Virus record (IMG/VR): IMGVR_UViG_3300042446_001701
Location: 1-30,020 of that record
DNA from: a virus
Length of the DNA stretch: 30,020 nt
Strand: one strand, 5' to 3'
The notes under the pieces are model-generated. The model made no database searches. It was given only the letters and a program-made list of their open reading frames with translations, and had not been told where the DNA came from. A program made the position numbers and the translations under genes. Shown one piece after another: positions 1 through 18,231 of this stretch. Position 1 is the first letter of the stretch, and each line of letters begins with the position of its first letter.

Positions 1-73
1 TATAGATGCGAACGATATCAACCTCGGATTCGTAAATCTTATTATCTACTTCTACTTCAAATGTATGTGTCAT
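1..73 (-). CDS. Partial hypothetical protein (N-terminus only)
   Basis: The first 24 codons of a gene that runs off the left edge are visible, starting MTHTFEVEVDNKIYESEVD. It is too short to assign a function; the visible part is acidic and looks like the opening beta strands of a small cytosolic protein. The ATG at 71-73 is chosen because a full copy of the repeated promoter-like motif lies exactly 6 nt upstream, as it does for nine other genes here. That makes it likely to be a real gene, probably the first of a transcript leaving the window to the left. Confidence 0.75.
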   Translation of the reverse strand, partial: MTHTFEVEVDNKIYESEVDIVRIY

Positions 74-79
74 GTTTCA

Positions 80-98
80 ATTGTATTCTAGTTTTTAA
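80..98 (-). promoter_or_regulatory. Motif A (putative early promoter), perfect copy
   Basis: Minus strand reads TTAAAAACTAG-AA-TACAAT, then 6 nt, then the ATG at 73. TACAAT resembles a sigma70 -10 box; no TTGACA-type -35 is seen. With a normal -10 to start distance, transcription would begin on the start codon. The promoter role is inferred from recurrence and fixed spacing. Confidence 0.7.
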
Positions 99-135
99 GC
101 ATAAGCACCATGTGCTGTGTCTGTCGTTGTTCGTA

Positions 136-438
136 TTATTTCGGGACGGACAACCATGTCAATACACCAGATGCCAGTGTCGTTACTATACGGACGAGAT
201 TTGCGGTTTCTCCATCAAGACCAATTTCTCGTAATAATGGGGATAATACAAAAAAAGATAATCCGTAAATAAAAATACCAATAACAAAAAAGGCAGGGAC
301 ACCATAATCCAGTGCCATGATTCTTGAAAGAATGTAGCAACCAATTAAAGCCAATCCAAAGGAAAATAATCCTGCATTCATAGCTATTCCAATTAGAAAC
401 AAAACAAGTCCCAATGCGATGTAAGGTAATTTAAACAT
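136..438 (-). CDS. Small multi-pass membrane protein
   Basis: A 100-residue, strongly hydrophobic protein with about three to four membrane segments: roughly residues 5-22, 25-42, 46-70 and a weaker one near 83-97. No enzyme motif or signal-peptidase site is visible, so it probably sits in the host inner membrane; a role in membrane takeover or superinfection exclusion would be speculation. The start codon is 6 nt behind a motif A copy (hexamer degenerate, CACACA), supporting the ATG at 438. It lies between two other motif A-driven small genes and has no recognised family. Confidence 0.75.
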   Translation of the reverse strand: MFKLPYIALGLVLFLIGIAMNAGLFSFGLALIGCYILSRIMALDYGVPAFFVIGIFIYGLSFFVLSPLLREIGLDGETANLVRIVTTLASGVLTWLSVPK

Positions 439-444
439 GGTTCA

Positions 445-463
445 TGTGTGTTCTAGTTTTTAA
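445..463 (-). promoter_or_regulatory. Motif A, degenerate hexamer
   Basis: TTAAAAACTAG is perfect, followed by AA and CACACA in place of TACAAT, then 6 nt and the ATG at 438. Its CTAG supplies the TAG stop of the gene at 453-659, so promoter and upstream coding end overlap. Confidence 0.6.
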
Positions 464-659
464 TAATATCAATTTCTTCGGAACGTAGGGACTCACCGAT
501 GGACAGTTGATGACCTTCGAAGATGTAGCGAGCGTATTCGCCATACTTTTCCATTACGTCTTCAATACTATTAGCTTCCACCCATGTTCTCTTAGTAAGA
601 CAATGATGATGCGAGCCTGATTGCCAACGATCCTCCCAAATGACTGTGTATTTTTGCAT
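453..659 (-). CDS. Small conserved-type phage protein
   Basis: A 68-residue soluble protein starting MQKYTVIWEDRWQSGSHHHC, ending in IIKN before a TAG that belongs to the next gene's motif A. The N-terminus is a beta strand followed by a His-rich loop, then a segment reading WVEANSIEDVMEKYG that looks like a short helix. Proteins of this look are common among small phage genes of unknown function. The start is fixed by a perfect motif A copy 6 nt upstream. No function is assigned. Confidence 0.75.
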   Translation of the reverse strand: MQKYTVIWEDRWQSGSHHHCLTKRTWVEANSIEDVMEKYGEYARYIFEGHQLSIGESLRSEEIDIIKN

Positions 660-665
660 GAAATA

Positions 666-684
666 ATTGTATTCTAGTTTTTAA
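666..684 (-). promoter_or_regulatory. Motif A, perfect copy
   Basis: TTAAAAACTAG-AA-TACAAT, 6 nt, ATG at 659. The TAA stop of the upstream gene (681-956) lies inside the motif. Confidence 0.7.
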
Positions 685-956
685 TTGCGTTCTTCTCTAA
701 GTTCGTAGCGCAAATCTTGTAATTTATCTTCAAGTTCAAAGACTTGTTGAGCAAGTGCGGTATTAGCATAACGAAGAACTTCAATGTCTTTTGGCAAGCA
801 TGGCAACCCTTCTGCGAGCTTGTCTGCATATGCTGAGAGTTCATTGTAGTCTTCATAGCTTACCCATTCACCAGAGCTATCTGCCTCCATTTCGGCGGAG
901 AAGCAATCAAATTTGCATTCGCGTAGAATTGGGGTGTATGTTTGGATTTTTTCCAT
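681..956 (-). CDS. Small acidic coiled-coil protein
   Basis: A 91-residue protein whose C-terminal third (about residues 56-91) forms a heptad-like helix rich in Leu, Glu and Arg, consistent with a short coiled coil and dimerisation. The N-terminal half contains three Cys residues (14, 18, 53) and many acidic residues but no clear metal site. The start lies in an A-rich stretch without motif A or late-type motif, so it may be read from a transcript beginning upstream, perhaps the one carrying the candidate structured RNA at 987-1169. Family not recognised. Confidence 0.65.
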   Translation of the reverse strand: MEKIQTYTPILRECKFDCFSAEMEADSSGEWVSYEDYNELSAYADKLAEGLPCLPKDIEVLRYANTALAQQVFELEDKLQDLRYELREERN

Positions 957-986
957 ATTTTATTTTTTAAAATCGATTAAAATTAA

Positions 987-1169
987 TTCGCTTCGGAACG
1001 GTCTGCGCCAACCTTTTCAGTATCCGAGTTTGAGGAGGATGGAATTTATGCCTGTCATTACTGACTTTTTCCGCGCACCCGAAGGCTCCATTTCTCGATC
1101 CCACCAGTCTCCGTGCTAAGTTAATAGTAGAGGGAGGTTCTGGTCATGTATTGATACTGCCGAAGCGAA
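987..1169 (-). ncRNA. Candidate structured RNA, about 183 nt
   Basis: A stretch with little coding signal and visibly richer in G and C than its surroundings. Its ends pair perfectly: TTCGCTTCGG (987-996) with CCGAAGCGAA (1160-1169). Just inside, CAGTATC (1018-1024) pairs with GATACTG (1153-1159). A third helix joins 1103-1107 plus 1109-1112 with 1140-1144 plus 1133-1136. On the minus strand two hairpins carry stable tetraloops: GCC-UUCG-GGU (1077-1086) and GUCA-GUAA-UGAC (1054-1065), the latter GNRA-type. These loops favour the minus strand, the direction of the flanking genes. TGCGC (in 1074-1078) can also pair with GCGCA in the bulge at 997-1017. It does not look like tRNA, tmRNA or RNase P RNA. 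Function unknown. Confidence 0.4.
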
Positions 1170-1175
1170 AAATCG

Positions 1176-1343
1176 TTATTTGGAATGGTTACGTTGATTA
1201 CCTTTGCGGCTTCTGTGTTTGCTCTCAGGGGCATCCCATCGAGTGTCACAAGCTTTGCCCTCAAAAATACGAGTGCCATTGTTGTTTTGATCTTTCTTGC
1301 TTGCGAATCCCGCAGCTTTAGCTTGTCGTGTGTTTTTGTTCAT
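1176..1343 (-). CDS. Small basic hypothetical protein
   Basis: A 55-residue open frame starting MNKNTRQAKAAGFASKKDQ, rich in Lys, Arg, Asn and Gln and ending KGNQRNHSK. The composition suggests a nucleic-acid-binding or disordered peptide. It follows the direction of its neighbours and fills the space between the HNH gene and the candidate structured RNA. Upstream is A-rich with a TACAAA 5-6 nt before the ATG, which may be a weak -10-like element. No family is recognised; the call rests on composition and position. Confidence 0.5.
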   Translation of the reverse strand: MNKNTRQAKAAGFASKKDQNNNGTRIFEGKACDTRWDAPESKHRSRKGNQRNHSK

Positions 1344-1382
1344 TTTGTTTTGTATTTTTATTTGTTTTGTGTTTTTATTTGC

Positions 1383-1388
1383 TAAATA
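1383..1388 (+). promoter_or_regulatory. Motif L (putative late promoter, TAAATA)
   Basis: TAAATA, then exactly 5 nt, then the ATG at 1394. It resembles the T4 late promoter core TATAAATA, whose start point lies 6 nt past the final A. The 19 nt ending in this ATG match the LAGLIDADG gene's start region (9595-9613) at about 15 positions. Confidence 0.5.
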
Positions 1389-1393
1389 TTATT

Positions 1394-2140
1394 ATGATTA
1401 AAGTATATGATACGTTTGAGAAAAAATCAATAGTCATGAATGATCCTTATGAATTTTTGAAAGAATATGGTTATTATAATTATAAAAATAGAAAAACTAT
1501 ATTTTTCTTCGCCACTAGAACCAAATATTGTTTGCATAGATTTATCAAAGAAGATTTTATTCATAAAATGTTTATCATGTATTGTATTGATGATGGTAGA
1601 GAGTATCACGGTGTTTCGTCTAATGGTTTTTTAATCCAAATTGGTGAGGAATGTTCGAGGTCTAATATTCATGAAATTAATAGAATTAGGTGTGGTGTTA
1701 GAACTACAATATCATTTTCGCAAAAAACATATTGTCTCAAAAAGAATAAAGATTCGATAAACAATCTCATGATAAGTAAGTATAAAGATTCTCATTTATA
1801 TAGAACAAAATCAAAAGATGTAAAAATACAAAGAAAAATTTCAAACTTACTTCGAGATAGAATAAGGTGTGCAATGAAGAGGAGTATCGCCAAGAAATCG
1901 GAGAAAACAATGGATTTGATCGGTTGTTCGATTTCATTTTTAATGAATTATCTGGAAGAAAAGTTTCAAGAAGGTATGACTTGGGATAATCAGGGTAAAT
2001 GGCATATTGATCATATTGTTCCATGTGCCTCTTTTAATTTATCAAATCCAGAAGAACAGAAAGTATGTTTCCACTACACCAACTTACAGCCTTTATGGGC
2101 GTTGGATAATATGCGAAAGGGTTCTAAAATTTTGAAATGA
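1394..2140 (+). CDS. HNH homing endonuclease (free-standing)
   Basis: A 248-residue protein with a C-terminal HNH nuclease domain: WHIDHIVPCASF, then CFHYTNLQPLWALDN about 20 residues on. It is preceded by the usual phage-HNH lead-in (RDRIRCAMK, LIGCS, LEEKFQEGMTW). The N-terminal 130 residues are not recognised and may hold DNA-binding elements. Such enzymes cut DNA at a specific site to spread their own gene. It is on plus against minus-strand neighbours, as expected of an inserted mobile gene. An in-frame extension reaches codon 1328, but the ATG at 1394 is preferred because TAAATA lies 5 nt upstream and the extension is a low-complexity hydrophobic run. No interrupted host gene is seen around it. 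Confidence 0.85.
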   Translation: MIKVYDTFEKKSIVMNDPYEFLKEYGYYNYKNRKTIFFFATRTKYCLHRFIKEDFIHKMFIMYCIDDGREYHGVSSNGFLIQIGEECSRSNIHEINRIRCGVRTTISFSQKTYCLKKNKDSINNLMISKYKDSHLYRTKSKDVKIQRKISNLLRDRIRCAMKRSIAKKSEKTMDLIGCSISFLMNYLEEKFQEGMTWDNQGKWHIDHIVPCASFNLSNPEEQKVCFHYTNLQPLWALDNMRKGSKILK

Positions 2141-2189
2141 TTTAGTATTGCGATTTGCCATATATATTATTTTGTTGTGTTGTTATTGT

Positions 2190-2387
2190 TCAAGCCATGT
2201 TATCACGAATTCTCATAAGTGTCAAGCGTTGATCGAGTTGTTCGTCAATCATTTTCATCCATTTATTTTTTTTATCCTCACTAGCATCTTGCCAAGATTC
2301 ACGAAGAATAGAAAGCTTTTCATCAATTTTTCGAATGGAAGATTGATTTTCGTCTGCATCGTATTGTTCTTTTAATTTTGTTACCAT
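2190..2387 (-). CDS. Small charged helical protein
   Basis: A 65-residue, highly charged protein (MVTKLKEQYDADENQSS...) predicted to be nearly all helix, with two amphipathic segments at about residues 15-32 and 38-62. It could be a small coiled-coil or DNA-mimic type protein, but nothing in the sequence proves this. A motif A copy lies upstream at an unusual distance (22 nt between hexamer and ATG), so this transcript would have a short leader. The HNH gene ends 49 nt downstream in convergent orientation. Confidence 0.65.
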   Translation of the reverse strand: MVTKLKEQYDADENQSSIRKIDEKLSILRESWQDASEDKKNKWMKMIDEQLDQRLTLMRIRDNMA

Positions 2388-2409
2388 TTTAATTCGTTGT
2401 CAGGTGTTT

Positions 2410-2428
2410 AGTATGTTCTAGTTTTTAA
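2410..2428 (-). promoter_or_regulatory. Motif A, long spacing
   Basis: TTAAAAACTAG-AA-CATACT, then 22 nt to the ATG at 2387. This is an exception to the 6-nt rule. The TAG stop of the gene at 2418-3002 lies inside it. Confidence 0.5.
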
Positions 2429-3002
2429 TATCTCGGATGATAAGTTCACAATTTTTAACGTTGGGAATTGTATCGAAGTCTTCCACACTCACGTTGTCAA
2501 TGATCATCAGCATTGTCTTGATAAATTCACCATGAGACACGATAACAGCAGTGTCAGCAGTGTCAGCCGCTTGAGTCTTCAACCAATTCAGAAAGATGAA
2601 TGCTCTCTGATGGCAATCAGCGAATGATTCCCCACCATCAGGACGACGATAGAAGTCAAACAGGTGTTTGCGTTCTTCTCTATTTTTACAGGCTTCATAT
2701 TCATTTCGAAGATTACCCCACTCACGTTCGCGAATCAAGACATGCTCTTCTTTATAAAATGGAATATAGAGAGGAAAGTGTGTATTGATAATTTTCATTG
2801 TCTCTTTTGCTCGCACATAAGGACTATGAATCAATAAAAATTCACTTGATGAGAGAAGCTCTGCACGAATCTCTTGCCCAACTTTATTTGCTTGCTCTTT
2901 ACCCTTTTCTGTTAGAGGAACAGACCAATCAGGCATTTTGAAATACACTGACTTGTTGATATTACCCTCTGACTGACCATGGCGTGTGATTAATAATTTC
3001 AT
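2418..3002 (-). CDS. Histidine phosphatase (phosphoglycerate-mutase-like)
   Basis: A 194-residue protein of the histidine phosphatase superfamily. The phosphate-accepting motif RHGQSEGN is at residues 7-14 (catalytic His8), an Arg in the SPYVRAKET segment at about 64 fits the phosphate pocket, and the second catalytic His is in VIVSHGEF (His157). Family members remove phosphate from small molecules, sugars, proteins or RNA ends; the substrate cannot be read from sequence. Its start overlaps the stop of the Rnl2-type RNA ligase (ATGA), so the two are translationally coupled. A role as end-healing phosphatase beside the ligase is an attractive but unproven guess. Confidence 0.88.
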   Translation of the reverse strand: MKLLITRHGQSEGNINKSVYFKMPDWSVPLTEKGKEQANKVGQEIRAELLSSSEFLLIHSPYVRAKETMKIINTHFPLYIPFYKEEHVLIREREWGNLRNEYEACKNREERKHLFDFYRRPDGGESFADCHQRAFIFLNWLKTQAADTADTAVIVSHGEFIKTMLMIIDNVSVEDFDTIPNVKNCELIIRDIKN

Positions 3003-4009: not shown

Positions 4010-4012
4010 TAT

Positions 4013-4096
4013 TTATTTTTTAAGTAGTTTATAAAGGATATAAATTCCTGTTGCGTATAGTAACACAAGAGTAATGGTTGTCAATATTTTTTTCAT
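4013..4096 (-). CDS. 27-residue single-pass membrane peptide
   Basis: Encodes MKKILTTITLVLLYATGIYI plus YKLLKK: a positively charged start, one hydrophobic helix (about residues 4-23), and a basic tail. The ATG overlaps the TGA of the RadA-like gene (ATGA), and the stop is 3 nt before the ligase start. It therefore fits the coupled-gene pattern of this operon exactly, which is the main reason to believe it. Function unknown; small membrane peptides of this kind in phages can act on membrane potential, lysis timing or defence, but nothing here discriminates. Confidence 0.65.
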   Translation of the reverse strand: MKKILTTITLVLLYATGIYILYKLLKK

Positions 4097-5049
4097 TTCG
4101 TCAATTCTTTATGCAATTTCTGACACTCTTGAGCGATCTTCCACACAGCATTCACACCACGACCGAACTTCTGAAGCTTACCTTCTCCAACCATCTCACG
4201 CACGATGTTGCCAGCAGTTTGACCTGACACGTTCAGCTTATCACAGATACGATCTAATGTCAAGTGAGGGGGTTCATCCATAGCAAGAATTTCTTCTTTA
4301 CGCTTGTCGTTAGCAGGTTCTTTAGATTTCTTTTCTTTGACTTCCTCAGTAGGAGCATTGTAAAGACCTTTGAAATCAAAACCATTGGCATTCATCATAG
4401 CCATGTGAGTCTTAGTCTCACCGAAGCGATTCTTGTATACATTGAAAATACGTAGGGCATTGTCTTCAGGATCAACAGTGATTTTCAGATTCACATCGAC
4501 GGCATGAATAATATCAGTACCACCTTTTGGAAGACCTTGAGTTGTAACATGGAGAACGAATACCAATACACAACCAGTTTCTTTAGCAGTGGAGAGAAGC
4601 AAGTCTTGAGCATATTGATAGAACTCTCGCTTCTTCATGTTCTTGTTAGAGCGAAGAGCTTGAAAGCTATCAACGACCATCATGTCATAGGAATACATGG
4701 CAGCAGCGATTTCTTCCACATCCTTGATGTGAGCTACATCCACATCAGTAACACCTAAACGCTTACAAGCATATGCGATTTGAATGTGAGACTCTTCGCC
4801 AGATGCTACTGCCACACGCTTACCTTGATTTGTAAGCAATTGGGCAATCTGTAAAAGTGCGGTAGATTTCCCCGTACCTCCTGGAGCGCAGATGGTGATG
4901 GCACTACCTGCCATGAATCCTTTGAATTGTTCAGTGCCAAACATAGTGTCGATCTCATCGTTACCAGTTGACATGCGATTGTAGAACGCATCTGGAATTT
5001 CAATGGATGAGCATTTGGCGAATTTTGTTTCTAAAGTGTTAAGTTGCAT
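4093..5049 (-). CDS. RadA/DnaB-like ATPase with C-terminal winged helix
   Basis: A 318-residue RecA-fold ATPase. Walker A is APGGTGKST (residues 55-63), Walker B is YDMMVVDS (ending near 128), and KNRFG stands at residues 206-210, the motif typical of RadA/Sms. RadA unwinds DNA at recombination intermediates and speeds strand exchange. The zinc finger and Lon-like domain of bacterial RadA are absent. Residues about 250-310 look like a winged helix (LTLDRICDKLNVSGQTAGNI), as in some phage and plasmid RepA/AAA_25-type ATPases, an alternative reading. A motif A copy 6 nt upstream fixes the start. Likely role: phage recombination or replication. Confidence 0.8.
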   Translation of the reverse strand: MQLNTLETKFAKCSSIEIPDAFYNRMSTGNDEIDTMFGTEQFKGFMAGSAITICAPGGTGKSTALLQIAQLLTNQGKRVAVASGEESHIQIAYACKRLGVTDVDVAHIKDVEEIAAAMYSYDMMVVDSFQALRSNKNMKKREFYQYAQDLLLSTAKETGCVLVFVLHVTTQGLPKGGTDIIHAVDVNLKITVDPEDNALRIFNVYKNRFGETKTHMAMMNANGFDFKGLYNAPTEEVKEKKSKEPANDKRKEEILAMDEPPHLTLDRICDKLNVSGQTAGNIVREMVGEGKLQKFGRGVNAVWKIAQECQKLHKELTK

Positions 5050-5055: not shown

Positions 5056-5074
5056 AGTGTATTCTAGTTTTTAA
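5056..5074 (-). promoter_or_regulatory. Motif A
   Basis: TTAAAAACTAG-AA-TACACT, 6 nt, ATG at 5049. It would drive the RadA-like gene, membrane peptide, RNA ligase and phosphatase as one unit. The TAG stop of the YopX-like gene (5064-5438) is part of it. Confidence 0.7.
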
Positions 5075-5438
5075 TAAGTTCGGAGTTTTCGTTAATATTG
5101 CCAATAATTTCAATGTTTTCGCCGCTCCACAACCCTCTGATATCGCAAGAATTGATATAAGTTAGATAATTACCATCATCGAAAATCACATGCGCTATGA
5201 AATTTTCATTCGAATATTCATCAGATGTAGCTTTTACAATATCTCCACAATAAATTTCTTCATTATTTTTGTCTTTCGTACCAGTCCATTGTTCGATTTT
5301 TTGATTTGGAATATCTCCCAACACTCCATAAGACTCCAAAGACCTCGCTTCAAAATCACCGTCATCAGTTGGAAATAGACAGAATGAATCTTGTGGTAGA
5401 TATTTTTTACCGTTCCAAACTCTAAATTTTAATTGCAT
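5064..5438 (-). CDS. YopX-like protein
   Basis: A 124-residue protein starting MQLKFRVWNGKKYL, with the family's middle motif WTGTKDKNNEEIYCGDIVK and C-terminal motif IEIIGNINENSELIKN. YopX proteins are common in phages and prophages; their job is unknown. A longer in-frame start exists at 5486, but the ATG at 5438 is preferred because the family begins with the (R)EIKFRVW motif and the longer form overlaps the next gene. Two more complete copies lie at 16609-17300 and a partial one at 15574. The stop codon sits inside the next motif A. Confidence 0.8.
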   Translation of the reverse strand: MQLKFRVWNGKKYLPQDSFCLFPTDDGDFEARSLESYGVLGDIPNQKIEQWTGTKDKNNEEIYCGDIVKATSDEYSNENFIAHVIFDDGNYLTYINSCDIRGLWSGENIEIIGNINENSELIKN

Positions 5439-5443
5439 AATAT

Positions 5444-5710
5444 TTAATATAAATTTTCTGAAAAAAGTGTTCCATCCACAGAGCATTTTCTTCTAATCTG
5501 TCCTGCAAGTTGTGCTATAATCCAAGCATCTTGTCGATTAATGAATAAACCCGTTTGATCAACGAATCCTTGTTCTTTGACTCGCGTGTGGTATTTCTCA
5601 CCATAAGCTTTTTCCAGCGTTTTTCGCATCTCAGGAGAATAATGACGAACACCGACGATGACATCCCCGTCATCCATGAGCATTGCAGCGGCAACAATAA
5701 GTCTTTCCAT
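5444..5710 (-). CDS. Conserved phage protein of unknown function
   Basis: An 88-residue protein beginning MERLIVAAAMLMDDGDVIVG, followed by VRHYSPEM and later KEQGFVDQTGLFINRQDAW. Small phage proteins with the pattern VRHxSP...QGFVDQ.G.F..R..A are widespread in large phages, but no biochemical role is known to me. The alternating pattern of hydrophobic strand, His-containing loop and helix suggests a compact domain. Motif A lies 6 nt upstream of the ATG, which fixes the start. The YopX-like gene follows after a 5-nt gap. Confidence 0.8.
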   Translation of the reverse strand: MERLIVAAAMLMDDGDVIVGVRHYSPEMRKTLEKAYGEKYHTRVKEQGFVDQTGLFINRQDAWIIAQLAGQIRRKCSVDGTLFSENLY

Positions 5711-5716: not shown

Positions 5717-5735
5717 AGTGTATTCTAGTTTTTAA
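5717..5735 (-). promoter_or_regulatory. Motif A
   Basis: TTAAAAACTAG-AA-TACACT, 6 nt, ATG at 5710. The TAA stop of the upstream gene (5732-6001) is inside the motif. Confidence 0.7.
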
Positions 5736-6001
5736 TCTTCTTTTTCGAAACATAATCCACCCAACCATCCTGATCCAGATAAACAATACCTATGAGGATG
5801 ATAATAGAAAGATGTAAACCAGTCCCAATCAGAACTATTTGATTCAAAATCATCCATCCACTCCATCCCCTCAATTTCTTCAATACTACTGATTAATTCA
5901 TAAAGAGGAAAATGAAAATCCTTTTCCAACCAACCCTCACCACCTGTTTCCAAGGTGTGTAAGATCTTGGGGATTACCAATTCTTTAATTTTCTGTTTCA
6001 T
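5732..6001 (-). CDS. Small acidic, Trp-rich hypothetical protein
   Basis: An 89-residue protein with an N-terminal basic helix (MKQKIKELVIPKILH) and an acidic, aromatic C-terminal half containing WMDDFESNSSDWDWF and then YYHPHRYCLSGSGWLGGLCF. The two Cys and the His pair could form a metal or disulfide site, but spacing is not diagnostic. Only the 11-nt core of motif A is present upstream, and CTAG is just 3 nt from the ATG, so the usual spacing is lost; the true start could differ. No family recognised. Confidence 0.65.
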   Translation of the reverse strand: MKQKIKELVIPKILHTLETGGEGWLEKDFHFPLYELISSIEEIEGMEWMDDFESNSSDWDWFTSFYYHPHRYCLSGSGWLGGLCFEKED

Positions 6002-6004
6002 AGC

Positions 6005-6015
6005 CTAGTTTTTAA
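6005..6015 (-). promoter_or_regulatory. Motif A core, truncated spacing
   Basis: TTAAAAACTAG then GCT then ATG (6001). The TACAAT hexamer and 6-nt spacer are missing; TATGAA after the core could act as a poor -10, which would place transcription start inside the reading frame. Possibly a decayed copy. Confidence 0.4.
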
Positions 6016-6446
6016 ACGTAGTCCTCTTCTTTACCATAGGAAGAAAACGATGGTTCATTAAAGTCAATTCTACCATCATCGTAACCTTTCTCGTAACCAG
6101 AGCCAAAGGATTCATGTCCAATGGTTTCCAGCAAGTCAGTGATGTCATTTTGGTCTTCTTGGTTGATTTGATATTTACCAAGAATGTTTTCAATTTGTTT
6201 ATGGATGTTCATAGGTTCTTGTTTTCTTGTTATGTCGATTTCTATTTTATCATCATGAAATTTGATAATACCATCTTTCACTAATTTGTCAGTGATTTCA
6301 CCGCACTTCGGATTATCTCCCCATTGTTCTCTAGTTTTTAAAGAGAGATTTGGGGAGGCAAAGATCATACTTATTGTGGCGATTTCTTCAAGAGAGAATC
6401 TACCATCAAAAAGTTCCAGAGGTATTGTAATATTATTATTTTGCAT
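6012..6446 (-). CDS. Hypothetical protein, possibly two-part
   Basis: A 144-residue protein. Residues 1-76 (ITIPLELFDGRFSLEEIATI... LVKDGIIKFHDDKIEIDI) look like a winged-helix type fold with a terminal beta hairpin, as in small replication or transcription proteins. Residues 78-144 start with an internal Met (MNIHKQIENILGKY) and carry a Gly/Tyr/Asp-rich segment (GSGYEKGYDDGRIDF) and acidic tail. A motif A copy lies inside the gene at 6323-6341. It could therefore be a fusion of two small genes, or the second half may be made separately from 6215. Overlaps its upstream neighbour by 11 nt. Confidence 0.65.
   Translation of the reverse strand: MQNNNITIPLELFDGRFSLEEIATISMIFASPNLSLKTREQWGDNPKCGEITDKLVKDGIIKFHDDKIEIDITRKQEPMNIHKQIENILGKYQINQEDQNDITDLLETIGHESFGSGYEKGYDDGRIDFNEPSFSSYGKEEDYV
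6323..6341 (-). promoter_or_regulatory. Motif A copy inside a gene
   Basis: TTAAAAACTAG-AG-AACAAT within the 6012-6446 reading frame (codons for LKTREQW). No start codon follows at 6 nt. It could drive an internal transcript or be chance; an exact 11-nt core match is not expected often by chance. Confidence 0.35.
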
Positions 6447-7183: not shown

Positions 7184-7444
7184 TTATTGTTTGAAGTATT
7201 TGTTAGCGCGGGTTTTCATATGTTCAATTGCTTCACTCACCGATTTAAGGCGATTATCAACTTTAGGCAATTGAAATTCATTTGCATTTGCTCGCGCCAC
7301 AGCAATTTTGATACCAAGCTCACGATCCCATTTGTCGATAGGATTGTGGAGAGAGTATCCATAATGAATTTTTTCATCTTGTTTAAATGCCACAACGACT
7401 CCGTGTGGTTTCCGATCTGCGTTTCTGATATAATTAATTAACAT
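7184..7444 (-). CDS. Conserved phage protein of unknown function
   Basis: An 86-residue protein with the pattern KPHGVVVAF ... GYSLHNPIDKWDRELGIKIAVARANA, seen in small proteins of many large phages and of unknown role. The core resembles a small beta sheet followed by a helix (SVSEAIEHMKTRANKYFK). Motif A precedes it, here with 9 nt rather than 6 between hexamer and ATG. The membrane protein gene follows after 1 nt, so this is likely the first gene of a run continuing to 6012. Confidence 0.78.
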   Translation of the reverse strand: MLINYIRNADRKPHGVVVAFKQDEKIHYGYSLHNPIDKWDRELGIKIAVARANANEFQLPKVDNRLKSVSEAIEHMKTRANKYFKQ

Positions 7445-7453: not shown

Positions 7454-7472
7454 AGTGTATTCTAGTTTTTAA
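7454..7472 (-). promoter_or_regulatory. Motif A, 9-nt spacing
   Basis: TTAAAAACTAG-AA-TACACT followed by 9 nt and the ATG at 7444. A transcript from it would carry about a 3-nt leader. The TAA stop of the gene at 7469-7774 lies inside it. Confidence 0.6.
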
Positions 7473-7942: not shown

Positions 7943-8383
7943 TTATTTGATTGTAATCATTTTCGGCCAATATAATACGTGTTTTGTTCCTGATTTACCA
8001 GACGACCCAATGGTGATATGTAGTCCACGATAGCCATCGTTCTCCATGATATTAAGGTCTTTTTTCATATTGTCAATGGTTTCCGAATAAACTTTCAGAT
8101 AAAACATAATAAATCCTTTGGTATATCCACCCCGAATCATATATGGATCATACTGAAAATCTACACGTTCTCCATCGTAATACACAGCACGTTGCCAATT
8201 GACATCTTTGTGAAATTTGGGATTGGTGATGGTGATGTGAGCATTATGTAAAGGACGTTGTAGGAGAATCCAATATTTTTTCGATAGATGCCAGTGGTAA
8301 TAATCAATAATATCGGGAGAAGTCTCAACGACGATGCGTTGTTTATCTCTTTCTACTTTAATTACCCCACTGGCATTGATCAT
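7943..8383 (-). CDS. 2H phosphoesterase, Acb1-like (anti-CBASS) candidate
   Basis: A 146-residue protein with two HxT motifs: NAHITIT (His49, Thr51) and GLHITIG (His122, Thr124), the signature of 2H phosphoesterases. Size and motif spacing (about 73 residues) are close to phage T4 Acb1 (gp57B), which cleaves cyclic oligonucleotide messengers of CBASS defence; T4 Acb1 is reported to use two HxT motifs near residues 44 and 113. The segments KKYWILLQRPLHNAH and GFIMFYLKVYSE also look Acb1-like to me. If so, it blunts host signalling early in infection. Alternative: another 2H enzyme acting on RNA 2',3'-cyclic ends, which would fit the ligases nearby. A perfect motif A lies 6 nt upstream. Confidence 0.7.
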   Translation of the reverse strand: MINASGVIKVERDKQRIVVETSPDIIDYYHWHLSKKYWILLQRPLHNAHITITNPKFHKDVNWQRAVYYDGERVDFQYDPYMIRGGYTKGFIMFYLKVYSETIDNMKKDLNIMENDGYRGLHITIGSSGKSGTKHVLYWPKMITIK

Positions 8384-8389: not shown

Positions 8390-8408
8390 ATTGTAATCTA
8401 GTTTTTAA
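8390..8408 (-). promoter_or_regulatory. Motif A, perfect hexamer
   Basis: TTAAAAACTAG-AT-TACAAT, 6 nt, ATG at 8383 of the Acb1-like gene. The upstream gene's TAA stop is inside it. Confidence 0.7.
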
Positions 8409-8616: not shown

Positions 8617-9105
8617 TTAATTAATCCAATCGGGTTTATTACGCTTCCAAGCATGAATATGCTTCTTATCTAAAATAATATATTTTACGTATTTTTCAGT
8701 AGCTGACAGTGACTCGAAATTTGGTATTTTCCGACACTCACAATCACCAGCAATGGCAATTGCAAAAGGTTTTAGATCGAAGTCATCAAATCCTAACAAG
8801 TGAGCATGATCTTCACACCATTCCAATACTGCTTGAGACTTGTGAATCTTACCATAACGTGCTGTGTATTCATCGAAGATAGCATGAGCATGAGCAATCA
8901 ACCATTGGAAGTTGTCCCAGCTTGCTCTTGTCCAAATAGATGAGGGATGCGAACGATGCGATGGTTTATAAGGAGCTTCGATACCTTGTTCATGATAAGC
9001 AGTACACAAAAGCTGAACCGATTCTAAGCCTTGTTTAACACAATGTTTGTCCACTAACCATCTTGCAGATTGATCAGGGTCTAATGACGTGCTGAAGATA
9101 TTCAT
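8617..9105 (-). CDS. Conserved phage protein (DKHCVKQ...HRSHPSSIW family)
   Basis: A 162-residue protein belonging to a set widespread in large phages. Hallmarks are SLDPDQSARWLVDKHCVKQGLESVQLL (split here: SLDPDQSARWL, DKHCVK, LESVQLL), YKPSHRSHPSSIWTR, and EYTARYGKIHKSQ. Conserved Asp, His, Cys and Lys suggest an enzyme or metal-binding protein, possibly DNA-related, but I know of no demonstrated activity. A CECRK segment near residue 125 adds two Cys. A perfect motif A copy 6 nt upstream supports the start. It seems to be the first gene after the terminator at 9201-9230. Confidence 0.8.
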   Translation of the reverse strand: MNIFSTSLDPDQSARWLVDKHCVKQGLESVQLLCTAYHEQGIEAPYKPSHRSHPSSIWTRASWDNFQWLIAHAHAIFDEYTARYGKIHKSQAVLEWCEDHAHLLGFDDFDLKPFAIAIAGDCECRKIPNFESLSATEKYVKYIILDKKHIHAWKRNKPDWIN

Positions 9106-9111: not shown

Positions 9112-9130
9112 ATTGTATTCTAGTTTTTAA
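9112..9130 (-). promoter_or_regulatory. Motif A, perfect copy in a true intergenic gap
   Basis: TTAAAAACTAG-AA-TACAAT, 6 nt, ATG at 9105. No long gene ends here; it stands just downstream of a terminator. So the conserved core is not a by-product of coding the end of the preceding gene, which strengthens the promoter reading. Confidence 0.75.
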
Positions 9131-9239: not shown

Positions 9240-9503
9240 TTAGAACGAGCGGATACCGTTCATCCTAATCTCGGTTGCCAAGTCTCGAACATCAACACTT
9301 GCCCATTGTGTGGAGTGTTGGTTCTTAGAAATGGCAACATTAGCTCCTCCACCTAACAAATGGAACGAACCGTCTTTCAACTGCACCATCTGAACTGAAA
9401 AAATTTTCGGATGTTTGCGTTGATCTCGGCTACGAAGCCACTGTTTGTTTTTACGTTGGTTTCTAACTGTTGTTGTTTTTGTTGTTGTTTTATTGTTTTC
9501 CAT
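9240..9503 (-). CDS. Small basic hypothetical protein, separate transcript
   Basis: An 87-residue protein with a Thr/Lys/Asn/Arg-rich, probably disordered head (residues 1-33, e.g. NKTTTKTTTVRNQRKNK) and a more ordered C-terminal part: IFSVQMVQLKDGSFHLLGGGANVAI, then STQWASVDVRDLATEIR. The basic head suggests nucleic acid binding. It is a single-gene transcription unit: a sigma70-like promoter upstream (9513-9540) and a terminator downstream. That makes it a candidate for an immediate-early gene made by unmodified host polymerase. Family not recognised. Confidence 0.75.
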   Translation of the reverse strand: MENNKTTTKTTTVRNQRKNKQWLRSRDQRKHPKIFSVQMVQLKDGSFHLLGGGANVAISKNQHSTQWASVDVRDLATEIRMNGIRSF

Positions 9504-9512: not shown

Positions 9513-9540
9513 ATATTACTATTGTTTTTTGTTTTGTCAA
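9513..9540 (-). promoter_or_regulatory. Host-type sigma70 promoter
   Basis: Perfect -35 TTGACA (9535-9540), 16-nt spacer, and TAATAT (9513-9518) as -10, 9 nt before the ATG at 9503. It is the only clear TTGACA-type promoter I found in the window and differs from motif A. The predicted leader is only about 2-3 nt. Confidence 0.7.
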
Positions 9541-9599
9541 GAAAAATTACCCATGTTTCACTATTTCGCCCTAAAAACAAAAAAATATCACAAATTTGT

Positions 9600-9605
9600 T
9601 AAATA
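9600..9605 (+). promoter_or_regulatory. Motif L (TAAATA) before LAGLIDADG gene
   Basis: TAAATA, 5 nt (CTGAT), ATG at 9611. The same arrangement precedes the HNH gene at 1394. Confidence 0.5.
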
Positions 9606-9610: not shown

Positions 9611-10525
9611 ATGGCTATAAGATGGAGCGATGAAGATATTAATAATTTGATAAAATGGTATCCAGAATTTGGTGGTGAATATTGCGCGGAGAAATTAGAA
9701 AGAAAAATATCCACAATAAGATTAAAGGCTTCTAGATTGGGGTTGAGGGTGAAAAATTGTGATAGAACAAAGGTTTCTCAATTAAATACCGAAAGATTTT
9801 TAAAATTAAGACAAGATGTTTTCGATTCTCGAAAAGATTTCTTAAAAAAAGATAAAATAACTCCAGAACAAGCATATTCATTAGGGTTTTTATGGGGTGA
9901 CGGTCATTTATCAACCCAAGGCGAAATGCTGTATATTACATTAGAAATAGCAACGGAAGATTTTACTGAAATATTTCCAATTTTGAAATCTTTAGAAATT
10001 GGAAAGAAGTGTTGGAAGACATATAATAGAAAACGAGCAGAAACATGGAAAGAAACAACTCAGGCTGGTTTATATGACCCATATCTTGGAAAATTTTTAG
10101 AATTTTATGATTATAAGAATAAGTCTGGTTGTGGTGCTGATAAAATAGTTTCATATATCCCAGAAAAATTACGACATTATTTTTTCAGAGGGTTATTTGA
10201 TGCTGATGGAACTTTTCATTTCAACGAAACGGCTAGTTCACACCGAGCTAGTATATCTTCGGTTTATGATCAAGACTGGAATTTTGTTTTAAATTTTTAT
10301 AAATCAATTAGTGTTGATCATGTGGCTACAATTAGTAGAAATATATCAGCAAATGGATATAAATACTCAAACATTTTTATACATAGGCAGAAATATTTAA
10401 ATGTTCTTTATGAAAATATTTTTGCATCATACACACAAGATAAAATAGGATTGGGTAGAAAACATGAAATTATAAAAGAAATATACGACAACCCGAAACA
10501 TATAAAATTATTAAAAGATCGTTAA
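9611..10525 (+). CDS. LAGLIDADG homing endonuclease (free-standing)
   Basis: A 304-residue homing endonuclease with two LAGLIDADG-type helices: AYSLGFLWGDGHLS (about residue 90) and YFFRGLFDADGTFHF (about 193), so it acts as a monomer with two half-domains. The first 45 residues (WSDEDINNLIKWYPEFGG... LKASRLGLR) form a Myb/HTH-like DNA-binding head. A TTG start at 9596 is possible, but the ATG at 9611 has TAAATA 5 nt upstream. It lies on plus between minus-strand genes; its TAA directly abuts the stop of the phosphoesterase gene. No intron or interrupted gene is visible, so it is free-standing. Confidence 0.88.
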   Translation: MAIRWSDEDINNLIKWYPEFGGEYCAEKLERKISTIRLKASRLGLRVKNCDRTKVSQLNTERFLKLRQDVFDSRKDFLKKDKITPEQAYSLGFLWGDGHLSTQGEMLYITLEIATEDFTEIFPILKSLEIGKKCWKTYNRKRAETWKETTQAGLYDPYLGKFLEFYDYKNKSGCGADKIVSYIPEKLRHYFFRGLFDADGTFHFNETASSHRASISSVYDQDWNFVLNFYKSISVDHVATISRNISANGYKYSNIFIHRQKYLNVLYENIFASYTQDKIGLGRKHEIIKEIYDNPKHIKLLKDR

Positions 10526-12927: not shown

Positions 12928-13266
12928 TTAAACATAGTCTTCTACTTTGTATAAGCTATTATCAGTTGTAACGTAAGTCACGCCATTCCGCTCTTCCACA
13001 TTCCGAACAATCGAGCTATGGAAAACGCCACGCATTTCAACCAATGCTCCTGTAACGTCAGATCGGAAAAATCGATCCATGAGAATCGGAGAATCACATT
13101 TAATTTCACCGATTAATTCACCGACCATTTCATAAGAAATTGGTGGTGATTTTCCCTCGTAAATAGAGAACCAACCGTTTTCCTGATCTTTACGATATTC
13201 TTCGATTGTTTGCGCTTGAAGCACAAGACTGTCGGGATTTATGTCTATTTTCGTTAATCTTTTCAT
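12928..13266 (-). CDS. Small hypothetical protein
   Basis: A 112-residue protein of mixed alpha/beta character (MKRLTKIDINPDSLVLQAQT...). The C-terminal half alternates short strands (ALVEMRGVFHSSIVRNVEE, NGVTYVTTDNSLYKVEDYV), suggesting a small beta barrel. No known motif is present. It is the first gene of a run that continues through the Rnl1-like ligase, thioredoxin-like protein and phosphoesterase, and carries a motif A copy exactly 6 nt before its ATG. Confidence 0.72.
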   Translation of the reverse strand: MKRLTKIDINPDSLVLQAQTIEEYRKDQENGWFSIYEGKSPPISYEMVGELIGEIKCDSPILMDRFFRSDVTGALVEMRGVFHSSIVRNVEERNGVTYVTTDNSLYKVEDYV

Positions 13267-13272: not shown

Positions 13273-13291
13273 ATTGTAATCTAGTTTTTAT
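13273..13291 (-). promoter_or_regulatory. Motif A
   Basis: ATAAAAACTAG-AT-TACAAT, 6 nt, ATG at 13266. One mismatch at the first base. It lies 13 nt beyond the upstream gene's end, so no stop codon overlap here. Probable promoter for the run 10526-13266. Confidence 0.7.
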
Positions 13292-13304
13292 CTTTCTTCA
13301 ATAC

Positions 13305-13772
13305 TCATACTCCACGACTTTTCAAAATGTATTCAATTACTTTCTTTGTCTCTGCTTGAATATGTTTAACATCTTTCAAAATATTCTGTAGATGATCGGT
13401 ATCGCAATTCTTTAGGAGAACGTATTTCAGAGGTGATTTACCATCTTTACCATAAGTCCCCCAAATAAAATTATCCATTTTCTCTTCGATGCTATCACAA
13501 TTTGGACGTTCTTCAGGTGGTAGGATTCTACCTTGTTTCACATCCCAAACACCATTGATTTCTTTTCGATTATATTTGTTATAAATTTCTGCGAAATCAG
13601 CATTAAATTCGAACCAGACTGTCTCACCATCAAAAGAAAAGCGATTATAACCTCCATAAAAATTCGTATGAGGTTGACCACCATCGCACATCATGTCGCC
13701 ATGAGTAACGTAATGATAATGGTGAAGCGATGCGATGAATTTCTCACCATCTGTTTTTCCTAAAAGTTTCAT
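13305..13772 (-). CDS. Conserved phage protein of unknown function
   Basis: A 155-residue protein containing HHYHYVTHGDMMCDGGQPHTNFY and, later, NFIWGTYGKDGKSPLKYVLLKNCDTDHLQNIL (here cut for length: NFIWGTYGKDGKSPLKYVLL). The second segment, with its WGTxGxxGKSPLKYV look, is familiar from small conserved proteins of large phages without a known role. The His/Asp-rich first segment could bind metal. Start supported by a degenerate motif A 6 nt upstream. Confidence 0.75.
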   Translation of the reverse strand: MKLLGKTDGEKFIASLHHYHYVTHGDMMCDGGQPHTNFYGGYNRFSFDGETVWFEFNADFAEIYNKYNRKEINGVWDVKQGRILPPEERPNCDSIEEKMDNFIWGTYGKDGKSPLKYVLLKNCDTDHLQNILKDVKHIQAETKKVIEYILKSRGV

Positions 13773-13778
13773 GATTAT

Positions 13779-13797
13779 AGTATACCTTAGTTTTTAT
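13779..13797 (-). promoter_or_regulatory. Motif A, degenerate core
   Basis: ATAAAAACTAA-GG-TATACT, 6 nt, ATG at 13772. The core has CTAA instead of CTAG, while the hexamer is closer to TATAAT than usual. The fixed 6-nt spacing is kept, suggesting hexamer and core compensate for each other. Confidence 0.6.
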
Positions 13798-14497: not shown

Positions 14498-14502
14498 TTT
14501 AA

Positions 14503-14508: not shown

Positions 14509-14537
14509 TTCTTTTATTTATTTATTTGTTTCCTGCT

Positions 14538-14765: not shown

Positions 14766-14777
14766 AATATTTAAAAT

Positions 14778-14840: not shown

Positions 14841-14843
14841 AAT

Positions 14844-14851
14844 TATTTATA
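14844..14851 (-). promoter_or_regulatory. Motif L, exact TATAAATA
   Basis: An exact T4-late-type octamer on the minus strand, 3 nt before the MSGGHFDY start codon (spacing differs from the 5 nt seen elsewhere). It may drive the genes at 14538-14765 and onward rather than the remnant itself. Confidence 0.4.
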
Positions 14852-14858
14852 TCGTCAG

Positions 14859-15572: not shown

Positions 15573-15573
15573 A

Positions 15574-15909
15574 TTATTCTTCTACTATTCCAAGTTCAAT
15601 TACGCTCGCCATTGCCAAGTCGTAACACTTTGTTATTTTAGACCATTCTCCAGTTTTGTCAAGTCGAATTCGGTATTTATTATTTGTCCAAATATCTTCG
15701 GGCATTTCAATACGATCATCATCAAAGCGGTTTTTGATTTTTCCAAGTATTTTAATGTTCATCTTATCAATACGATCCGCTCTTTCCAAAGCTTTTTGTG
15801 CCGCTCGTCTCAATTGTTCTGCTGTAGCAAACCCAGCAACCATGCCAATGTGATTTATAATAATGTCCCCCTCGTAAATGTCTTTTCCATTCTCTTGTTC
15901 TGTATTCAT
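15574..15909 (-). CDS. Chimeric protein with partial YopX motif
   Basis: A 111-residue protein whose start, EQENGKDIYEGDIIINHIGM, copies the middle motif of YopX proteins (KNGKDIYEGDI) but lacks the family's N-terminal KFRVW part. The rest is a helical segment (FATAEQLRRAAQKALERADRID) and a beta segment (NIKILGKIKNRFDD) that loosely recalls the YopX ending. It may be a truncated and rearranged YopX paralogue joined to another sequence. The gene directly abuts its neighbours (1 nt and 3 nt gaps) and shows no motif A. Confidence 0.65.
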   Translation of the reverse strand: MNTEQENGKDIYEGDIIINHIGMVAGFATAEQLRRAAQKALERADRIDKMNIKILGKIKNRFDDDRIEMPEDIWTNNKYRIRLDKTGEWSKITKCYDLAMASVIELGIVEE

Positions 15910-15912
15910 AGA

Positions 15913-16359
15913 TTATTTTTTTGTAATTTTTAATCCTAGCTTGGCGGCTTTTTCAGTTAATTCATCCATTTGTTTTTGAATTGTATATTTTTCGTAAGTA
16001 ACTAAATCTTTTTTGTATTGAATCATATCTGCTTCGTATTCTTTCATGTGTTGAGCATAGTCATCACGTTCAACTTTATACCAACGCAGATTGTTTTGAT
16101 ATTGTTTTTCATCTTGTTGGAGATTGCGTTCTGTTTTTTGAATTTTAATTCGTTTATATATACACGAATTGGCGCAGATCAATTCTTCGCCAGCGTTATC
16201 TTTTTGAATCTTTGCAAGTTTTTGAATAATATACTCAATTGGTTTGCTAGTTATTGTAGAAAACCCTATTAGAGGTATGTCTTTATAATAATAAGACTTG
16301 GGTTTATTTGGTCTGATCCAGTATTTTTCTGGTTTTATTGGTATGAAAGGATAATGCAT
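15913..16359 (-). CDS. Coiled-coil hypothetical protein
   Basis: A 148-residue protein. The N-terminal third is Pro/Tyr/Lys-rich (YPFIPIKPEKYWIRPNKPKS). Residues about 70-145 form a long charged helix (e.g. ERNLQQDEKQYQNNLRWYKV, YEADMIQYKKDLVTYEKYT) that should be a coiled coil. Two Cys in ELICANSCIYKR could form a disulfide or metal site. No enzyme motif. Probably a structural or adaptor protein; function unknown. Confidence 0.68.
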   Translation of the reverse strand: MHYPFIPIKPEKYWIRPNKPKSYYYKDIPLIGFSTITSKPIEYIIQKLAKIQKDNAGEELICANSCIYKRIKIQKTERNLQQDEKQYQNNLRWYKVERDDYAQHMKEYEADMIQYKKDLVTYEKYTIQKQMDELTEKAAKLGLKITKK

Positions 16360-16381
16360 ATTAGCGTGTGTTTATATTATT

Positions 16382-16612
16382 TTAATATTTGTTCTCTTTT
16401 CCAAAAATTGTTTCCATTGTTTTCATTTGCTCTAGCGTTTCGCTAATTTCTTCTTCACTGATTTGTTCATCATCTTGATTACAAATGCGAAACCGATAGG
16501 GCAACTCCCTTACCAATTCCATGATGGGCATCAAATAGCGGCGATAGTCACCCATCGTCCAAGTTTGCCCCCCATCGTCGGAGTATTCGTAGTAATAGTA
16601 TTTGTGTTTCAT
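16382..16612 (-). CDS. Small hypothetical protein
   Basis: A 76-residue protein with an aromatic N-terminus (MKHKYYYYEYSDDGGQTWTM) followed by MPIMELVRELPYRFRICN and an acidic helix (EQISEEEISETLEQMKTME). The YEYSDDGGQTW opening resembles short beta hairpins found in small phage proteins. Its ATG overlaps the stop of the upstream YopX-like gene (ATGA), so they are co-translated. Function unknown. Confidence 0.7.
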   Translation of the reverse strand: MKHKYYYYEYSDDGGQTWTMGDYRRYLMPIMELVRELPYRFRICNQDDEQISEEEISETLEQMKTMETIFGKENKY

Positions 16613-16962
16613 TGTTTTAAAAGCTCAGGGTTCTCGTGAATGTTACCAATGACTTCGTAATCCTCCAAAATGTCTGGTGATAAACTGTATGCGTGGTCAT
16701 AAAGTGGACCATCACCATCTATCATGAATGAACCTGCTGCAAAAAACACATGCCCGATATTAGCCTCTCCATCACTACCATCATGTTCTTCAGCTAGAAT
16801 ATCACCCTCATACACCTCTTTACCAGAAGTCGTTTTCATTCCAGTGAATTGCAGAGGTATGAATTCCTTGTGACCAAATCGCATAACCATTTCCCATGAA
16901 TACGCTCTATCACTCATTCTTTTAGTATCAGAGTGATACGTTTTAAATTTAATTTCTCTCAT
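16609..16962 (-). CDS. YopX-like protein (second copy)
   Basis: A 117-residue YopX-type protein: N-terminal REIKFKTYHSDTKRM, central FTGMKTTSGKEVYEGDILAE, and C-terminal DYEVIGNIHENPELLKQ. All three family segments are present, so it should fold normally. It sits in tandem with the next copy (16959-17300), both joined by ATGA overlaps, and is more diverged at its N-terminus than that copy. The tandem suggests duplication followed by divergence, perhaps for different targets. Confidence 0.8.
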   Translation of the reverse strand: MREIKFKTYHSDTKRMSDRAYSWEMVMRFGHKEFIPLQFTGMKTTSGKEVYEGDILAEEHDGSDGEANIGHVFFAAGSFMIDGDGPLYDHAYSLSPDILEDYEVIGNIHENPELLKQ

Positions 16963-17300
16963 TTTTGTAATAGTTCTGGATTTTCGTGGATGTTACCAAT
17001 GATTTCGTGTTCAATTGCCCAATCTTTTGAAGCAATATCTTCATCAATCATAAATGAACCGTCATCGAAGGATACTATACTAACACCATTACCAACTTTA
17101 TGTATTCCTCCATATGATAAGATATCTCCCTCGTAAATGTCTTTTCCATTCTTATCTTTAAGACCAATAAATTGTTGAAAATCATACTCTTCTACAGGGT
17201 TCATGTCATACATCTGCCACTCCACGATATCAAAGTTGGCGAATGGTTTCCATTCCTTCTCAACCTTATCCCAAACTCTAAATTTTATTTCTCTTCGCAT
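16959..17300 (-). CDS. YopX-like protein (third copy)
   Basis: A 113-residue YopX-type protein with the canonical REIKFRVWDKVEKEW start, FIGLKDKNGKDIYEGDILSYG centre and HEIIGNIHENPELLQK end. It is the closest of the copies to the usual family pattern. Overlaps its upstream neighbour by 16 nt and its downstream paralogue by 4 nt. Biochemical role unknown. Confidence 0.82.
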   Translation of the reverse strand: MRREIKFRVWDKVEKEWKPFANFDIVEWQMYDMNPVEEYDFQQFIGLKDKNGKDIYEGDILSYGGIHKVGNGVSIVSFDDGSFMIDEDIASKDWAIEHEIIGNIHENPELLQK

Positions 17301-17470
17301 ATTGAAAATAAATCTTTAACGGTGTCTTCGTTGAAGGTTTGATGGATTAAAATTGTTTTAAATGTTAGAATCCAATCATCGACATTTGAGTGTCGATTCA
17401 TGGTGATTCGAAGCTCATTATCAGATGATGGGTCGGAAACGGTAATTATTATTGTTTGTTGTTGATTCAT
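17285..17470 (-). CDS. Small hypothetical protein
   Basis: A 61-residue protein: a strand-rich start (MNQQQTIIITVSDPSSDNEL) and a helix (NVDDWILTFKTILIHQTF). Its ATG overlaps the stop of the upstream gene (ATGA) and its end overlaps the YopX-like gene by 16 nt, so it belongs to the coupled run 16382-17778. No family recognised. Confidence 0.65.
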   Translation of the reverse strand: MNQQQTIIITVSDPSSDNELRITMNRHSNVDDWILTFKTILIHQTFNEDTVKDLFSICEEK

Positions 17471-17778
17471 TTTTTAATGTTTTTAGGTGCTTCTTTTATT
17501 GCTTCTTCTGGCAACGGAGGGCATTTTTGATACTGCCACCATTCACTCCCATGATATTCGCCGCGATCACTCCATGAGCCATCGTTATACCAAATTGTGC
17601 CGAAGAGTTCTTGACTCCCATAGCCGCTATTATAGTCAAAGTCGAGACGAGGAAGTACCTCTTCAAGAGTTCCCTCGATCTTTATGTTACTATCTCCCCA
17701 GTCGAGTTCGTGGTTGATTTGAACATACTTTACTTCACGGTCTTTGATATGTTTTAATAATTCTTCTTTAGCATTCAT
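17467..17778 (-). CDS. Conserved-type phage protein
   Basis: A 103-residue acidic protein with a characteristic aromatic block: LFGTIWYNDGSWSDRGEYHG, then SEWWQYQKCPPLPEEA. Small proteins with GTIWYxDGxWSxRGEYDGxEWW are frequent in large phages and their role is unknown. The N-terminal helix (AKEELLKHIKDREVKYVQI) precedes a strand-rich core. It is the first gene of a coupled run that includes two YopX copies. Confidence 0.75.
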   Translation of the reverse strand: MNAKEELLKHIKDREVKYVQINHELDWGDSNIKIEGTLEEVLPRLDFDYNSGYGSQELFGTIWYNDGSWSDRGEYHGSEWWQYQKCPPLPEEAIKEAPKNIKK

Positions 17779-17801
17779 AGTGTTTTTATTAATTTGTTCG
17801 T

Positions 17802-18206
17802 TTATCGTAATTTCAAGCTATTTTTAATATTTTGTTCTTGATGCTCCAGAACATGTTCAGGCACATTATGAATGTTTTTACCTCCATGACGATTCTCAAG
17901 CACCAACGAGAAAACCATAATACCACGTTTTTCTGCTTCGTCAAGATAAAATTTGTAATCGCTTTCTTTCGTGGAGGTATTTGCAACTACGATGGTATCG
18001 GTTGAAGAAGAATCGATCAATGATAGATACTTCTCTTGGCAAGCTTTATGAGCCTGTCCAAGCTTGGAAGCATCAAAATTATAATTACCCTGTCCATCTG
18101 TGAAATAATCATCAGCACAGCAGATACAAGAATCAGGTGCAAAGGTTTTGGCAAAAGTGGATTTGCCAGCCCCACTGACTGCTCTAATTAGTATTAATTT
18201 ACGCAT
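17802..18206 (-). CDS. P-loop kinase, polynucleotide-kinase-like
   Basis: A 134-residue single-domain kinase: Walker A is AVSGAGKST (residues 9-17), CADDYF at about 30-35 provides the conserved acidic residues near the phosphate acceptor, VVANTSTKESDY stands in the place of the T4 Pnk DTN segment, and a lid helix (NVPEHVLEHQEQNI) carries the usual VP pattern. This fits the kinase half of T4 Pnk and the N4BP2-type kinases, which phosphorylate 5'-OH ends of RNA or DNA. No phosphatase domain is fused. It could prepare ends for the two RNA ligases. A perfect motif A lies 6 nt upstream. Confidence 0.75.
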   Translation of the reverse strand: MRKLILIRAVSGAGKSTFAKTFAPDSCICCADDYFTDGQGNYNFDASKLGQAHKACQEKYLSLIDSSSTDTIVVANTSTKESDYKFYLDEAEKRGIMVFSLVLENRHGGKNIHNVPEHVLEHQEQNIKNSLKLR

Positions 18207-18212
18207 AGCCCA

Positions 18213-18231
18213 ATTGTAGGCTAGTTTTTAA
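18213..18231 (-). promoter_or_regulatory. Motif A, perfect hexamer
   Basis: TTAAAAACTAG-CC-TACAAT, 6 nt, ATG at 18206. This is the rightmost copy I found; none follows in the 11.8 kb of mostly structural genes. The upstream gene's TAA stop lies inside. Confidence 0.7.

Follow-up and report, generated by a model that had tools for sequence, protein, structure and literature searches.

Introduction

Phage T4 has nearly 60 middle promoters, in which the MotA box, (a/t)(a/t)(a/t)TGCTTtA, is centred at -30 and lies 12 ± 1 bp from the -10 element (PMC2988021). These promoters work by MotA/AsiA sigma appropriation and combine a sigma70-type -10 element with a phage box that takes the place of the -35 element, whereas the T4 late promoters (TATAAATA) belong to the gp55/gp45/gp33 system. 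Phage transcripts are often leaderless (PMC5312081), and T4-type phages also carry PeSLs, mobile promoter-stem-loop cassettes (PMC4503421), which are composites of an early promoter and a stem-loop. In this study, a repeat of the form TTAAAAACTAG-N2-TACAAT was analysed in a 30,020-nucleotide (nt) stretch of viral DNA (IMG/VR record IMGVR_UViG_3300042446_001701, hereafter the window) and in its relatives. The repeat very probably serves an uncultured lineage of T4-like phages as a middle-class promoter, predicted to make leaderless mRNAs.

The repeat is like the T4 middle promoters in its sigma70-type -10 element with a phage box in place of the -35, in its dozens of copies and in serving non-structural genes of a T4-type phage. 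It differs in that the centre of TTAAAAACTAG lies near -20, with 2 bp separating the box from the -10, so that it is not a MotA box; MotA and AsiA were not found, and the messages are predicted to be leaderless whereas those of T4 are led by a Shine-Dalgarno sequence. In common with T4, the same genomes have [ACT]TAAATA boxes ahead of virion genes and encode a clamp-like protein as well as a gp55-like sigma, but the box lies at -12 from the ATG, a leaderless position, and in T4 at about -31 to -36 by the same pipeline. As in leaderless genes of bacteria and archaea, the promoter would place the start on the A of the ATG and a Shine-Dalgarno sequence is lacking, here as a prediction from sequence; unlike in those genes, the leaderless register appears to be used by early, middle and late promoters alike within a single lytic phage genome.

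The repeat in the window and its conservation

The window gave thirteen matches to the pattern at up to three mismatches, every one on the minus strand and left of position 18,232, and dinucleotide shuffles of the window gave 0.37 matches on average and three at most. A fourteenth copy at 13779 reads TAAAAACTAaggTATACT, with CTAAGG replacing CTAGnn. A weight matrix built from three other genomes recovered the same 14 sites, where about 0.2 would be expected in random sequence, and the right 11.8 kb contained zero copies. The original prediction had reported fourteen minus-strand copies in the left 18 kb, none in the right 11.8 kb and ten copies with the hexamer ending exactly 6 nt before a start codon; the count was borne out by the pattern search together with the matrix, the empty right part was confirmed by the scan, and the distance of 6 nt was found in exactly ten copies (Table 1). 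Among the remaining four, one has its ATG at 9 nt and one at 22 nt, one is intragenic and one lacks the -10, the last being the truncated core that had been noticed near 6005.

Upstream of gene 4093-5049 (site 5056-5074), the motif was kept in 31 of 31 orthologues with a usable upstream region (L172-L202; 77-100% identical), although many of them have unrelated DNA immediately before it. In three unique sequences, the ATG has shifted downstream by 3 nt (ACA-ATG) and the -1/+1 step is unchanged. In L178 and L180, the swapped flank upstream of the motif resembles a tRNA gene end.

Anatomy of the element and position of the initiator

Seven whole IMG/VR records were fetched as relatives, and two site sets were used: 265 exact-core sites and 477 sites with a relaxed core. 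Records G002 and G007 are nearly identical and G007 was excluded from the 477-site register, initiator and TTGAC counts; because several records are near relatives, the sites are not all independent.

Within a sigma70 -10 element, no bases are more critical than the A at -11 and the T at -7. Among the 265 sites, A was present at -11 in 95-100%, T at -7 in 97% and T at -12 in 79-90%. By its A-11 and T-7, the hexamer bears the signature of a -10 element of the sigma70 type seen in T4 middle promoters, and its sigma70-like character, first noticed in the window, is supported by the relatives. The columns from -40 to -26 are unconserved, leaving no conserved -35, and the TTAAAAACTAG box spans -25 to -15, ends 2 bp before the hexamer and hardly varies among the relaxed-core sites; this supports the earlier suggestion that a box upstream replaces the -35. 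An extended -10 (TGn directly upstream) was not found in the 265 sites, where -14 is A in 82% and the G at -15 comes through core selection.

The first ATG lies 6 nt past the hexamer in 324 of the 477 sites and 9 nt past it in 75, and the distances of 7, 8 or 10 nt account for 23 together. When the ATG is at +1, the preceding base is C or T (324/328 sites); when it is displaced by 3 nt, a pyrimidine-purine step is still found 6/7 nt past the hexamer (71/76 sites). Because this step keeps its distance to the hexamer when the ATG moves, the initiator and the predicted start point are tied to the promoter and not to the ATG. Furthermore, TTGAC occurs at exactly -34 in 14 of the 477 sites and at adjacent positions in 0-1. 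It lies there in the early promoters as well, and this -35 element is a second independent tie of the predicted start to the promoter. The proposed transcription start at the A of the ATG is supported by this motif-anchored initiator.

When G003 was scanned with an independently trained matrix, 109 matches were obtained versus 0 in shuffles, and 73 of them had an ATG at 6 nt. A single sense match was deep inside a gene; sense overlaps were mostly with the last bases of the preceding gene, its stop codon lying within the motif. Thus, across a whole genome the copies are neither equally frequent within genes nor at random distances from starts, and the position bias, strand bias and near absence inside genes argue for the phage-specific promoter of the original prediction.

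Distribution and lineage

A scan of IMG/VR for the motif with an ATG at 6 nt found at least 117 stretches, and the 80 rows listed span about 52 contigs. The exact TTAAAAACTAG is strongly strand biased: whole records of 116-207 kb hold up to 58 copies on one strand and 0-1 on the other. The counts for the two strands are 58/1 for a record of 207 kb, 24/1 for one of 184 kb, 27/1 for one of 178 kb and 37/0 for one of 117 kb, and a 59-kb record has 39/0; the same records contain the reversed pattern 0-2 times. The whole relatives contain the T4 core genes gp17, gp18, gp20, gp21, gp23, gp41, gp43 and gp55, and the window itself contains tail, baseplate and rnlA/rnlB-type genes. A near-identity search against cultured phages gave no match, and the best cultured-phage identity of the relatives was 37% for TerL (best-ranked match) and about 33% for gp23. 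Since these identities are so low despite the T4 core genes, the motif marks an uncultured far branch of T4-type phages. A motif scan of 84,980 bacterial and archaeal genomes, which also served as a host search, gave one match, approximately the chance number, and the motif is therefore phage specific. Literature searches turned up no account of this motif class or of leaderless T4-type phages.

Putative early and late promoter types and the start codon context

The same genomes carry early and late promoter types in the same register to the ATG. In the early type, TTGACA begins at -34/-33 from the ATG and is followed, mostly after a 16-nt spacer, by a TAnnnT-like hexamer (39 genes listed). 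In the late type, a T4-late-like [ACT]TAAATA box begins at -12 (134) or -13 (26), and it is present in most or all orthologues of many virion genes such as gp17, gp18, gp20, gp21 and gp6. The middle motif serves non-structural families, and in their gene content the promoter types conform to the logic of T4. A gp55-like late sigma was found in six of the seven relatives and a clamp-like protein in G003; the gp55-like sigma fits the late box. A very conserved 95-amino acid (aa) protein (L125:13086-13370) is encoded upstream of gp32, where T4 has gp33, and by gene order only it is a possible late co-activator.

Shine-Dalgarno tetramers before the ATG were not above the control position in the clade. 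Applied to T4 and to two other T4-type phages, the same pipeline did detect a Shine-Dalgarno peak, clear for T4 and for Pseudoalteromonas phage XG4, weaker for Rhodothermus phage RM378, of which 50 kb were analysed. Both sequence signs of a leaderless gene, a -10 element placed for a start at the ATG and no Shine-Dalgarno sequence above control, were therefore found. A phage-encoded ribosomal protein S21, considered as the cause of the missing Shine-Dalgarno sequences, was not found. The non-promoter genes of the clade are enriched in A at -3, -6 and -13, again without a Shine-Dalgarno sequence, and this "Kozak-like" A-3/A-6 composition, considered as a clue to the host, suggests initiation of the Bacteroidota style; the early TTGACA/TAnnnT promoters, however, are unlike Bacteroidota promoters.

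Proposed mechanism and alternative explanations

We propose that the hexamer at -12 to -7 would serve as the -10 element of the host-type RNA polymerase holoenzyme and be contacted by the primary sigma, and that TTAAAAACTAG at -25 to -15 would be a phage-specific box standing in for the -35 contacts, most likely bound by a phage-encoded activator or an altered sigma contact. Such a mechanism would resemble the sigma appropriation of T4 and yet be a separate system, given the different box and spacing and the negative searches for MotA and AsiA. Transcription would start 7 nt past the hexamer. This position coincides with the A of the start codon or, in roughly one case in six, precedes the codon by 3 nt. 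A message that begins with the start codon would be leaderless and be translated without a Shine-Dalgarno sequence. A wider reading, which we favour to a lesser degree, is that throughout the lytic cycle the early, middle and late genes of the lineage are all expressed from leaderless mRNAs, with one fixed start-codon register per promoter class, and that a middle factor unrelated to MotA/AsiA reads the box 2 bp upstream of the -10.

Several points weigh against the proposed middle promoter. The transcript starts are predictions from sequence, the gene starts were taken from a simple open reading frame caller, and the "middle" timing follows from T4 analogy and gene content only. In the search for MotA and AsiA, PF09114 and PF09010 were matched in T4 and not in G001, G002, G003 and G006, a result that remote homologues could escape, and PF09158 gave no match in a search without a positive control. 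A sigma70 region 2 domain was not found. The modified polymerase that the original prediction offered as the other option is a hypothetical alternative, neither supported nor refuted by these searches. A small basic 87-aa early protein (gene 9240-9503), present in all motif-bearing phages examined except two fragments, was considered as the activator; its AlphaFold model was unusable (predicted local distance difference test score of 49), and no activator claim is therefore made for it. L217 carries a copy truncated by an early stop codon. No DNA-binding domain was found among the best 25 Pfam/PHROG families listed for 111 conserved proteins of unknown function.

The main rival explanation, which we consider unlikely, is that the 19 bp of the element form a single promoter recognised as a unit by an alternative sigma or an RNA polymerase encoded by the phage. 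The near invariance of the box among the relaxed-core sites and its distance of 2 bp from the hexamer, closer than that of a typical activator site, agree with such a reader, but the missing sigma70 region 2 stands against it. T7-type polymerase (PF00940) gave no match in seven records, in a search in which no positive control matched either. Furthermore, the gp55-like sigma fits the late box instead, and the co-occurrence of a -35 at normal spacing suggests host-type sigma contacts. A role of the motif at the RNA level, where it would bind ribosomes or couple translation in place of the Shine-Dalgarno sequence in polycistronic mRNA, is quite improbable. The fixed ATG distance, the lack of Shine-Dalgarno sequences and the upstream stop codons that often lie within the motif would fit it, but the pyrimidine-purine step follows the hexamer and not the displaced ATG, A-11/T-7 is a sigma70 -10 signature, and the early and late boxes hold the same ATG register without this box. 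A TTGAC at exactly -34 would be meaningless in RNA; this and the motif-anchored initiator make a translational element unlikely.

Alignment breakpoints among eight records pile up at the start of the motif, with 196 starts of high-scoring segment pairs within 10 nt versus about 17 expected, and flanks are swapped there. These would be consistent with a repeat that is mainly a recombination or mobility element (a cassette linker or homing target) and looks like a promoter secondarily, but the precise constraint on the -10, the initiator and the ATG register would be needless in a linker, and a conserved promoter between cassettes yields the same breakpoint pattern, which makes this explanation very improbable. 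The pile-up is taken as a side observation only, because part of it arises where the conserved motif extends alignments up to its edge, and general gene mosaicism would contribute. A middle promoter at gene-cassette junctions would resemble the PeSLs; unlike their early promoter with a stem-loop, the box here is of the middle type, and the likeness comes from the breakpoint pile-up and the swapped flanks. The promoters may serve as joints of mosaic gene cassettes.

These results provide an early, middle and late promoter map, at sequence level, for an uncultured lineage of T4-type phages that appears in dozens of metagenome contigs, with single-nucleotide transcription starts predicted for hundreds of genes. 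If this reading is true, 5' leaders and Shine-Dalgarno sites are wholly dispensable for a lytic T4-type phage, which would point to a host with unusual translation initiation and offer a natural system for competition among leaderless mRNAs. They also point to a putative sigma-appropriation factor.

Other features of the window

Table 1. Putative promoter elements of the window; distance is from the end of the hexamer to the ATG.
Element	Coordinates	Strand	Distance (nt)	Gene and remarks
Putative middle promoter, TTAAAAACTAG aa TACAAT	80..98	-	6	predicted start 73 = A of ATG; gene runs off left end
Putative middle promoter, poor hexamer CACACA	445..463	-	6	ATG at 438
Putative middle promoter	666..684	-	6	ATG at 659; predicted start = A
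Box + CATACT	2410..2428	-	22 (nearest downstream ATG)	2190-2387
Putative middle promoter	5056..5074	-	6	4093-5049 (RecA/DnaB-like ATPase); kept in all orthologues examined
Putative middle promoter	5717..5735	-	6	5444-5710
Upstream box alone, no -10	5997..6015	-		5732-6001; ATG 2 nt past CTAG
Intragenic copy, hexamer AACAAT	6323..6341	-		inside 6012-6446; expected place without start codon
Putative middle promoter	7454..7472	-	9	7184-7444; predicted 3-nt leader ACA
Putative middle promoter	8390..8408	-	6	7943-8383
Putative middle promoter	9112..9130	-	6	8617-9105 (phrog_624)
Putative middle promoter	13273..13291	-	6	12928-13266
Putative divergent middle promoter, TAAAAACTAagg TATACT	13779..13797	-	6	13305-13772
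Putative middle promoter	18213..18231	-	6	17802-18206 (phrog_2071 ATPase)
Putative early promoter -35 TTGACA, 16-nt spacer, TAATAT	9535..9540	-	9	9240-9503
Putative early promoter -35 TTGACA, 16-nt spacer, TAAAGT	22975..22980	-	9	20898-22943
Late-type box CTAAATA	1382..1388	+		-12 of ATG; 1394-2140, endonuclease VII-like
Late-type box TTAAATA	9599..9605	+		-12 of ATG; 9611-10525, endonuclease-like
Late-type box TTAAATA	19449..19455	-		-12; 18580-19443
Late-type box TTAAATA	26935..26941	-		-13; 26077-26928, tail region
Late-type box TTAAATA	28903..28909	-		-12 of GTG; 26942-28897, tape measure

The two endonuclease-like genes, 1394-2140 and 9611-10525, lie on the plus strand, opposite to the genes around them, and both have a late-type box at -12. 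The 681-aa protein of gene 20898-22943 matched a nucleotide-sugar epimerase family at its start and again at its end, and its residues ~128-265 matched families named for anaerobic ribonucleotide reductase and thymidylate synthase; from these matches, it looks like an intein within an epimerase gene. Several YopX-like (phrog_98) paralogues at 15574-17300 and 5064-5486 have repeated C-termini, GNI.ENPEL, and adjoin each other or end at a promoter copy.

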